A stretch of DNA of 64,000 nucleotides, from positions 1 to 64,000 of the forward strand of contig JAFXVJ010000037.1 of NCBI GenBank assembly GCA_017524615.1. The letters are read 5' to 3'. The translations under genes and the position numbers were made by a program. The notes under the pieces were generated by a model. It saw only the letters and a program-made list of their open reading frames with translations, searched no databases and was not told the DNA's origin. Below, in pieces: positions 40,828-46,031 of the stretch. Numbering within the stretch: position 1 is the stretch's first letter; every line of letters starts with the position of its first letter. The stretch comes from Clostridia bacterium. GTDB lineage: Bacteria > Bacillota > Clostridia > Christensenellales > Aristaeellaceae.

Positions 40828-40856
40828 TTGCGTTTATCGAAAAAAGAGACTATAAT
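40828..40856 (+). promoter_or_regulatory. Promoter of the structured RNA / zinc-ribbon transcript
   Basis: TTGCGT (40828-40833), 17-nt spacer, exact TATAAT (40851-40856). Predicted start near 40863, which matches the 5' arm of the closing helix of the RNA. Confidence 0.8.
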
Positions 40857-40861
40857 GACGG

Positions 40862-41078
40862 CGGTTGGCAAAAATCGGGTCTGTGGTTGCAAGCCGATGC
40901 CAGTCGCAGGCAAAGCGGTCCACGTAAGCAGGGCAAAGCCCCTGTGAGCATGGTGCGGTCTAGATGTAAGCCCGGCCGCGCAAAAAGCGCGAGAGGATGG
41001 CGTGAGGGCGCAAAGGCGCAGAGCAAAATCCCGGACGGCGAGTGTGGGGTCAAAGACCAGGTCAGCCGATCAGCACCA
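40862..41078 (+). ncRNA. Structured noncoding RNA, possibly raiA-motif class
   Basis: About 210 nt starting at a strong promoter and carrying no credible ORF. A closing helix pairs 40862-40869 with 41061-41068 (eight bp, two G-U). Inside are ATCGG/CCGAT (40874-40878 with 40894-40898), CAGGG/CCCTG (40929-40933 with 40940-40944), CGCGC/GCGCG with an A5 loop (40977-40981 with 40987-40991), GCGC/GCGC (41008-41011 with 41016-41019) and GGTC/GACC with AAA loop (41048-41051 with 41055-41058). TGGTGC (40951-40956) can also pair with GCACCA (41073-41078) as a pseudoknot. Size, dense structure and clostridial setting suggest the raiA motif, but I recognise it by look only; it could be another class. 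Confidence 0.65.
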
Positions 41079-41115
41079 ACCATATATCCTAATTAATCAG
41101 GGGGAAACAAAGACA

Positions 41116-41397
41116 ATGTATCAGGACAAGACGCTGGTGTGCCGTGACTGTGGCAAGGAATTTGTGTTCACTGCCGGCGAACAGGAATTCTACGCCGAAA
41201 AGGGCTTCCAGAATGAGCCCACCCGCTGCCGCGAATGCCGTCAGGCCCATAAGGCCGCCCGCAACAATGGGGCCCCGCGGGAAATGCATGATGCGATTTG
41301 CGCCAACTGCGGCGCCGCGACCCAGGTGCCCTTCCTGCCGCGGGAAGATCGGCCCGTGTATTGCAGCGAATGCTTCGCCGCCATGCAGCGTCGGTAA
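41116..41397 (+). CDS. Small zinc-ribbon protein (probable zinc-ribbon domain family)
   Basis: A 93-residue protein with three CxxC pairs in the order CRDC, CREC and CANC, plus a last YCSEC. The N-terminus MYQDKTLVCRDCGKEFVFTAGEQEFYAEKGFQNEPTRC is the hallmark of a widespread clostridial zinc-ribbon family of unknown function, with zinc or nucleic-acid binding expected. The start at 41116 follows AGGGGGAAACAAAGACA; the frame is open further up through the structured RNA but that is not coding. It shares a transcript with that RNA and ends at its own terminator. Confidence 0.85.
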   Translation: MYQDKTLVCRDCGKEFVFTAGEQEFYAEKGFQNEPTRCRECRQAHKAARNNGAPREMHDAICANCGAATQVPFLPREDRPVYCSECFAAMQRR

Positions 41398-41411
41398 TTG
41401 CGTCACAAAAG

Positions 41412-41440
41412 CGGCTCCGTTTCATCACGGGGCCGTTTTT
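41412..41440 (+). terminator. Terminator after the zinc-ribbon gene
   Basis: An eight-bp stem CGGCTCCG/CGGGGCCG (41412-41419 and 41428-41435, one T-G pair) followed by TTTTT. Confidence 0.8.
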
Positions 41441-41486
41441 ACTTGCCTTCATTGCAAATGAATCACGATCGAAAGGGGATTTGCAG

Positions 41487-45485: not shown

Positions 45486-46031
45486 TTATTTGTACACTGC
45501 CCTTTCCCCGCCTACATAGGGCAGGCGGGACCAGGCGCACACCAGGTTGGCCTGGCCGATCTTCCTGATTTCGCCCCGGTAGGGCACCGCCACGGGCCTC
45601 AGGTGCATGCCGATCAGGGTGTCGCCGATGTCGATCCCCGCGTCAGCCTGGACGGCCATCACCAGGCAGGGCTCCTCCATCATTTTCCACGCCGCGGCTG
45701 GCACGCTGCCCCCAGCCTTGGGCTGAGGCACGGCGTTGACGCGGGTATAGCGGCATTCCTTCGCGGCGGAAAGCGGCATCACCAGGGAGCGGTTCAGATG
45801 CTCGCAGCATTGGAAAATGGGAATGAATTCCCGTTGACTGCATACGTTCAGCACGGCTCCCGCCACCCATTCCCCGATTTCCGGTACGCTGGCCTTGCCG
45901 ATTTGCCCGCCCGCGATTTCGCTGGTGGAGCAGCCGATCACGATTTGCGCGCCGGGCTGCAATTTCGCCGCTTTCGCTAAATCCAGAATCGCTTTCGTTA
46001 CCTGGGCGCGGATCATCTGTTCATCGTTCAA
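45486..46031 (-). CDS. DUF436 / TIGR01440 family protein
   Basis: A 181-residue protein conserved in Firmicutes. It shows GAQIVIGCSTSEIAGGQIGKASVPEIG, FQCCEHLNRSLVM, EEPCLVMAVQADAGIDIGDTLIGMHLRPVAVP. The function is unknown; the fold is alpha/beta and the invariant cysteine-histidine segment QCCEHLNR suggests a catalytic or metal site. The start is probably TTG at 46031 after AAAGGATG; an ATG five codons in is an alternative. Confidence 0.85.
   Translation of the reverse strand: MNDEQMIRAQVTKAILDLAKAAKLQPGAQIVIGCSTSEIAGGQIGKASVPEIGEWVAGAVLNVCSQREFIPIFQCCEHLNRSLVMPLSAAKECRYTRVNAVPQPKAGGSVPAAAWKMMEEPCLVMAVQADAGIDIGDTLIGMHLRPVAVPYRGEIRKIGQANLVCAWSRLPYVGGERAVYK

Follow-up and report, generated by a model that had tools for sequence, protein, structure and literature searches.

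In C. difficile, the raiA RNA, also called ModT (Rfam RF03072), is a highly abundant and stable molecule; its structures have been solved and its molecular function is open (PMC11706538, PMC11751092, PMC12286853). The cryo-EM structure contains two pseudoknots, pk-1 and pk-2 (PMC11751092). As reported in PMC11706538, C. difficile and C. acetobutylicum that have lost the RNA show disturbed sporulation, and entry into stationary phase is affected as well in C. difficile. The RNA complements in trans in both species, and a longer read-through isoform occurs. The same paper describes raised tRNA and 5S levels in a modT mutant and, separately, a possible protein association. Citing Soares et al., PMC11706538 gives comFC (74%) and the raiA gene (66%) as the usual neighbours, and its authors judge gene neighbourhood to be a poor guide. 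Rfam gives RF03072 the type label ‘Cis-reg; riboswitch’, ribozyme activity has been proposed (PMC11751092, PMC11706538), and the term ‘raiA-hairpin’ occurs in PMC8388888. A second system of relevance is ribosomal protein S15, a single protein gene with unrelated structured autogenous leaders in different lineages (PMC4137082).

The locus described here resembles known raiA/ModT loci in its full-length match to the family model, its conserved sequences and a TATAAT box just upstream. It differs in that the downstream gene encodes a zf_Tbcl zinc-finger protein, which follows at a short distance with no terminator found between them. The word ‘zinc’ occurs 0 times in the main text of PMC11706538. 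The pairing, the shortened RNAs and the replacement leaders reported below are likewise unmentioned in the literature searched, a set to which neither Soares et al. (2024) nor Weinberg et al. (2017) belongs.

The raiA RNA and zinc-finger gene of the window

The window is the whole 64,000-nucleotide stretch of DNA that was analysed. It contains the following features.

40828..40856, + strand: promoter, from the sequence, with TTGCGT at 40828-40833, a 17-nt spacer and TATAAT at 40851-40856
40863..40868, + strand: 5' arm GGUUGG of the outer closing helix, from the fold, outside the Rfam model and in the predicted transcription start region
40870..41074, + strand: raiA (ModT) RNA, RF03072, model positions 1-209 of 209, 168.4 bits, gathering threshold 101.3, E 1.7e-42
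41076..41081, + strand: 3' arm CCAACC of the outer closing helix, from the fold and a flank-pairing permutation test
41099..41104, + strand: ribosome-binding site AGGGGG of the zf ORF, 11 nt 5' of the ATG
41116..41397, + strand: zf ORF, 93 aa, matching PF13451 zf_Tbcl (91.8 bits), PF23477 zf_Tbcl_2 (77.2 bits) and TIGR04272 (CxxC-x17-CxxC)
41411..41444, + strand: terminator-like hairpin GCGGCTCCG-TTTCATCA-CGGGGCCGT with a T-rich tail, from a simple hairpin rule

The RNA is a known family member. Its match to the RF03072 covariance model is full length and exceeds the curated threshold (168.4 vs 101.3 bits), the consensus blocks GGUCUGUGGuuGnAAG and ACCAGGUCAGC are present in its alignment to the RF03072 consensus, and its place in the raiA family is near certain. 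A first-pass annotation of this DNA had described an ornate RNA ‘such as the raiA motif’ and named a covariance-model search against Rfam as the check; the RNA proves to be that motif itself. The same annotation held that a lack of covariation in homologues would count against it, an objection that falls because the RNA fits the covariance model across all 209 positions. The fold energy alone is unremarkable (z -1.15); the case for a structured RNA rests on this match. No second RF03072 match was found in the window's genome, the completeness of which is about 82%. An adjacent raiA or comFC gene, usual though not required for RF03072, is absent beside the RNA, and the S30AE gene found in the genome sits on another contig.

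The closing helix consists of six contiguous pairs (GGUUGG/CCAACC) and not the eight first described. It spans 40863-40868 and 41076-41081, and so lengthens P1 past the limits of the Rfam model. Across 41 zf-linked family loci, a flank pairs better with its own partner than with flanks of other loci (mean longest stem 5.12 vs 4.35; 0/2000 permutations). From the position of the -10 box, we infer that transcription starts in the 40863..40868 region. The view that the RNA contains no credible reading frame stands, as the overlapping ORFs of 77 to 105 aa are mechanical only. The zf frame is itself open upstream as far as a GTG at 41002, and the conserved start with a ribosome-binding site is at 41116.

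Membership of the downstream protein in zf_Tbcl is shown by scores of 91.8 bits against a Pfam cut-off of 24 for PF13451 and 77.2 bits against 27 for PF23477. The protein comprises two treble-clef domains with four CxxC pairs, the cysteines of which are invariant in 17 sequences. Its ribosome-binding site AGGGGG is the commonest form, occurring in 17/61 linked loci.

The promoter had been called ‘near-consensus’, a generous term: its -10 TATAAT is perfect, but the -35 TTGCGT matches at only 3/6 positions, and a consensus promoter scan of the window accordingly does not list it. Among raiA loci with enough upstream sequence, the 45 nt before the RNA contain a TATAAT match of 5/6 bases or better in all 60 zf-linked and all 30 other loci, and the match is exact in 79 of these 90. 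Divergent from the raiA unit, a perfect 12/12 sigma-70-type promoter at 40655-40627 (- strand) points towards a glycoside hydrolase gene.

No terminator was found between the RNA and the zinc-finger gene, either in the window, as first noted, or in the RNA-to-ORF linkers of 61 linked loci, which belong to the family and class samples described below and comprise 41 f1, 10 f24, 6 f45, 2 f53, 1 f5 and 1 f40 loci. Using a simple rule, the count was 0/61 against a shuffle mean of 0.9 and maximum of 3, a result that is weak alone because the linkers are short and so little is expected by chance. A terminator-like hairpin follows the zf stop codon in 55/60 linked loci (shuffle mean 6.9, max 12), under a rule that allows stems running into the T tract; a stricter rule missed such stems, and the window's hairpin at 41411-41444 is missing from the list of a separate consensus scan. 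The 28-50 nt linker also leaves little space for a second promoter outside the RNA. Promoter, raiA RNA, zf ORF and terminator very probably form a shared transcription unit, as judged from their arrangement. Where no zf gene is recognised, a terminator lies behind the RNA in 8/27 loci (shuffle mean 1.6, max 3), under a rule whose 9-nt loop limit loses some hairpins, so that termination of unlinked raiA RNAs by a terminator of their own is only partly supported.

On its upstream side in the window, the unit is next to a glycoside hydrolase family 2 gene of opposite strand; a GDPD gene lies past the terminator. Further along, at 45489-46031 (- strand), lies a DUF436 / TIGR01440 protein of unknown function.

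Distribution of the pairing and shortened RNAs

Three samples of 60 family, 341 class and 348 phylum genomes, each including the window's genome, were searched for both the RNA and the protein profile. Those of more than 40 genomes were scored with stricter filters, and related genomes are not independent in any count given here. The raiA RNA is present in 52/60 family genomes, of which 43 have the zf ORF 28-50 nt downstream. Linkage is seen in 25/68 raiA genomes of the class sample, at 30-41 nt or, in family f24, at 113-120 nt, and in 17/33 raiA genomes over cut-off in the phylum sample, at 34-44 nt. The pairing with a zinc-ribbon gene in place of the raiA gene, first remarked on for the window alone, recurs in many families. 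The long f24 linkers (L091-L100) share conserved blocks such as GAAC..GUUCU and may contain a further structured element; RNAalifold on these ten linkers found almost nothing.

The two partners also occur apart. Of the nine unlinked raiA genomes in the family sample, G017 and G034 are so only through contig ends, the contig ending 3 nt after the RNA in G017 and 82 nt after it in G034, where a matching ORF begins. At least 7/52 have 1500 nt of downstream sequence and no adjoining zf gene. Unlinked raiA genomes number 43/68 in the class sample and 16/33 in the phylum sample. Among class-sample raiA genomes with a two-finger profile match of at least 110 bits among the matches listed, 25/29 are linked, and four class-sample genomes contain both RNA and two-finger gene at separate places. 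Matches to the zf profile are found in 187/341 class-sample genomes, compared with 68 for raiA. A raiA RNA lies upstream in 29 of 80 named loci from the protein-profile search, including that of Pelosinus propionicus DSM 13327 (L197), in which the RNA spans 1732-1955 and zf begins at 2001. Because only the top-scoring protein matches make up the 80, the set is biased towards the window's lineage. Four family loci with no adjoining zf gene (L006, L007, L008, L011) have a P1 variant, GUCCGUGG with AGGUCGGGC, and two of them (L006, L011) share a seemingly related downstream gene that looks HAD-like by eye.

A shortened form of the RNA was found in addition to the full-length one. The phylum sample contains ten sub-threshold raiA matches, scoring 42-59 bits, and each is followed by a zf gene after 40-46 nt; the match is 113-120 nt long in nine cases and 259 nt in the other (G566). 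Shortened RNAs of 110-121 nt are present in 19 of the 22 genomes searched in the order to which G641 belongs (L309-L327), with no raiA match over cut-off in any of the 22. All 19 precede a zf gene, at 32-41 nt, a spacing that differs from the 40-46 nt above through the start codon being set differently in the two comparisons. Nine of the ten sub-threshold phylum genomes are also among the 19. The shortened RNAs retain both P1 strands, conserved sequence on the 5' and 3' sides, GGUCUGUGGUUGAAAGUCGA, ACCAGGUCAGC and a P3-like part, have lost the middle, and have been found so far solely in front of zf.

Gene neighbours were counted by tblastn with one example per gene, whose Pfam assignments supply the names: S30AE hibernation factor, sigma-70 regions 2 and 4, FlgN and, for the comFC-like example, a double zinc ribbon with a phosphoribosyltransferase. 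A comFC-like gene lies upstream in 12/51 family loci, a further likeness to known raiA/ModT loci, and in 5/5 f44, 4/6 f45, 2/2 f34 and 2/2 f61 loci. Downstream of zf, an S30AE gene is found in 9/10 f24 loci, the single f5 locus and 1/6 f45 loci. A set of 71 zf loci shows no raiA match, as judged on the fetched stretch only; the true number is at most 70, since one (L172) begins inside an apparent raiA 3' end cut by the contig end. In this set, S30AE is downstream in 3 and a sigma-70-family factor upstream in 52. The sigma factor accompanies 30/34 loci with the tRNA-like leader described below (three of them classed weakly) and 22/37 others. On our own reading of its sequence, it appears SigH-like. 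These S30AE and sigma-70-family neighbours would fit stationary phase.

Other leaders of zinc-finger genes

Genes for zf_Tbcl without raiA often have structured leaders of other kinds. The first, found in Clostridia (30 aligned loci, e.g. L166:1906-1972), is a tRNA-like leader of about 66-75 nt situated about 30 nt upstream of the gene. It resembles tRNA genes (RF00005) in its acceptor, D, short anticodon-like and T arms, and differs in that the anticodon arm is shortened and ARAGORN mostly calls no tRNA. The alignment consists of 26 of 27 loci chosen by D- and T-arm pattern (L216 was dropped) and four added loci, several rows being trimmed by eye; another alignment, A4, contains ordinary tRNAs and was not used. 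In the 30 rows, 88.2% of cells pair and 11 pairs have changed on both sides, which is covariation. None of the five cloverleaf measures was reached in any of 500 shuffles, a test inflated by kinship among the rows, and slid versions pair at most 57.5%, a comparison that favours the cloverleaf because we drew it on the same alignment. Run alone, RNAalifold recovers no more than the D stem and a portion of the T stem.

A model of this leader, run over the 341 class genomes, gave 15 matches above 50 bits, all 15 beside zf, five being rows of the model (G266, G114, G383, G277, G151). Between there and 43.4 bits lie 17 more, of which 4 adjoin zf; the other 13 are 76-78 nt long and do not. Matches were typed completely to this score, making 32 in total, 19 zf-linked and 13 not. 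Two zf-linked matches score lower, where the unlinked ones (G227, G310, G101, G300, G381, G199 and the rest) were left out of the count. All eight unlinked matches run through ARAGORN are ordinary tRNA genes, so the leader model also finds true tRNAs. The class-sample raiA search found no match in the 21 genomes with a zf-linked tRNA-like leader, and the leader model found none in 40 phylum loci (best 10.8 bits).

Nine leaders match RF00005 weakly, at 29.0-40.2 bits, and such weak tRNA matches are all by which Rfam recognises this leader. ARAGORN called no leader on 20 loci and one of seven run as leaders, L230, which it labelled ‘tRNA-???’ and which lies beside a tRNA-Gly. This call suggests that the tRNA-like leader may descend from a tRNA gene.

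The second kind of leader belongs to unlinked zf copies in the window's family (L292-L307). It is about 110 nt long, has its own promoter-like box and in most cases carries a CCUCC-type stretch complementary to the ribosome-binding site. Among the 16 of 44 listed unlinked copies examined, which are the only zf copy in 5 of the 16 genomes, the unpaired probability of the ribosome-binding site has a median of 0.07 vs 0.34 in shuffled sequences and is lower in 14/16. The leader is predicted to conceal the ribosome-binding site. In two further zf leaders (L280, L291), a closing helix CUUGUUCAGG..CUGAGCA like that of some raiA RNAs was seen with no raiA match; by eye only, these are possibly decayed raiA RNAs.

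Readings of the raiA-zf unit

In the explanation that we consider best, if tentatively and with somewhat less than half our confidence, the raiA RNA is the first half of a two-part unit that consists of its own promoter, the RNA, about 40 nt with the ribosome-binding site, the zf_Tbcl ORF and a terminator. A single transcript of about 580 nt would hold both the RNA and the mRNA, and cleavage, or decay that halts at the closed P1 helix, may free from it a stable RNA of about 210 nt. zf_Tbcl would be an RNA-binding protein that recognises P1/P3, the part retained in the shortened forms, and would tune its own expression through this binding. The raiA RNA would also act in trans at the change from growth to stationary phase, possibly in complex with zf_Tbcl or its relatives. 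In favour of this explanation are the family membership of the RNA, its linkage to zf at a conserved spacing, the terminators placed behind the ORF and not before it, the shortened RNAs that precede zf, the other structured leaders of zf genes, neighbours that fit stationary phase, and the possible protein association and the raised tRNA and 5S levels of PMC11706538.

The idea of self-control draws on the leaders. As its mRNA repeatedly carries unrelated structured leaders, zf_Tbcl resembles an autogenous RNA-binding protein of the S15 type (PMC4137082), a likeness drawn by analogy and from sequence alone. We read the gene as one that may be under leader-RNA control, and infer that its product might bind raiA RNA and control itself. 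In that light, raiA may be one class of zf leader, with a P1/P3 core that serves zf and other parts that serve the trans role. As the protein partner of raiA RNA, zf_Tbcl is the leading candidate, a hypothesis we regard as possible rather than probable. The mode of self-control is unexplained, because there is no sign that raiA hides the zf ribosome-binding site.

An alternative, which we think rather unlikely, is that raiA is a free-standing trans RNA that uses the terminator of the next gene, so that zf would be passively co-transcribed and functionally unrelated. This would agree with trans complementation in two clostridia (PMC11706538), with the varied genes downstream of raiA RNAs and with the 9/52 unlinked family genomes, two of these by contig end. 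It leaves unaccounted for the narrow spacing kept across families, which in the phylum sample is 34-46 nt for each of the 27 linked cases, the restriction of shortened raiA RNAs, so far, to positions before zf, and the other structured leaders on zf genes without raiA.

That raiA is a plain riboswitch, regulating zf in cis in response to a small molecule and with no trans role in this organism, is unlikely. Although the Rfam type label, the 5' leader position with its narrow spacing and the existence of shortened leader forms all suit such an element, no expression platform was seen between RNA and ORF: the linkers lack terminators (0/61), and the ribosome-binding site shows no preferential pairing. 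Compared with shuffled RNA, its accessibility was lower in only 23 of 49 loci, and the median unpaired probabilities were 0.35 for real and 0.33 for shuffled RNA; the test covered 49 of the 51 linked loci outside f24, the 10 f24 loci being left out. Cis control through a ribosome-binding site masked by raiA RNA is accordingly unsupported, as is the ribosome-binding-site part of the 3'-flank pairing suggested in the first-pass annotation. Trans complementation in other species (PMC11706538) also speaks against a purely cis-acting switch.

Cleavage by raiA as a ribozyme, separating the RNA from the zf mRNA or acting on other RNAs, has been proposed for the RNA (PMC11751092, PMC11706538) and would supply the 3' end that a species of about 210 nt needs when no terminator precedes the ORF, but is very improbable given that shortened forms without the middle of the RNA still stay at zf.

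Several observations count against our preferred explanation, the two-part unit with zf_Tbcl as partner. raiA needs no zf in cis, because it complements in trans (PMC11706538) and is unlinked in 43/68 class-sample and 16/33 phylum-sample genomes. Conversely, zf matches are commoner than raiA in the class sample (187/341 genomes vs 68), four genomes of that sample have the two partners apart, and at least 7/52 family raiA genomes lack an adjoining zf gene. A broader history, which we regard as speculative and rather doubtful, would have raiA begin as the protein-binding self-control leader of zf_Tbcl, remain so in many lineages, and acquire a further role in trans. The P1/P3 core of about 115 nt before zf would be what is left where this trans part was lost, and other lineages would have swapped the leader for a decayed tRNA or for one in which the ribosome-binding site is hidden. 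On this view, the protein partner long sought for raiA would be zf_Tbcl, which would bind tRNA or ribosomes as growth gives way to stationary phase.

Together, the zf unit, the shortened RNAs and the replacement leaders provide a named candidate partner for raiA RNA. The shortened forms offer a natural map of which part of raiA serves zf, and the raiA-zf pairing gives a concrete lead to the function of this RNA.
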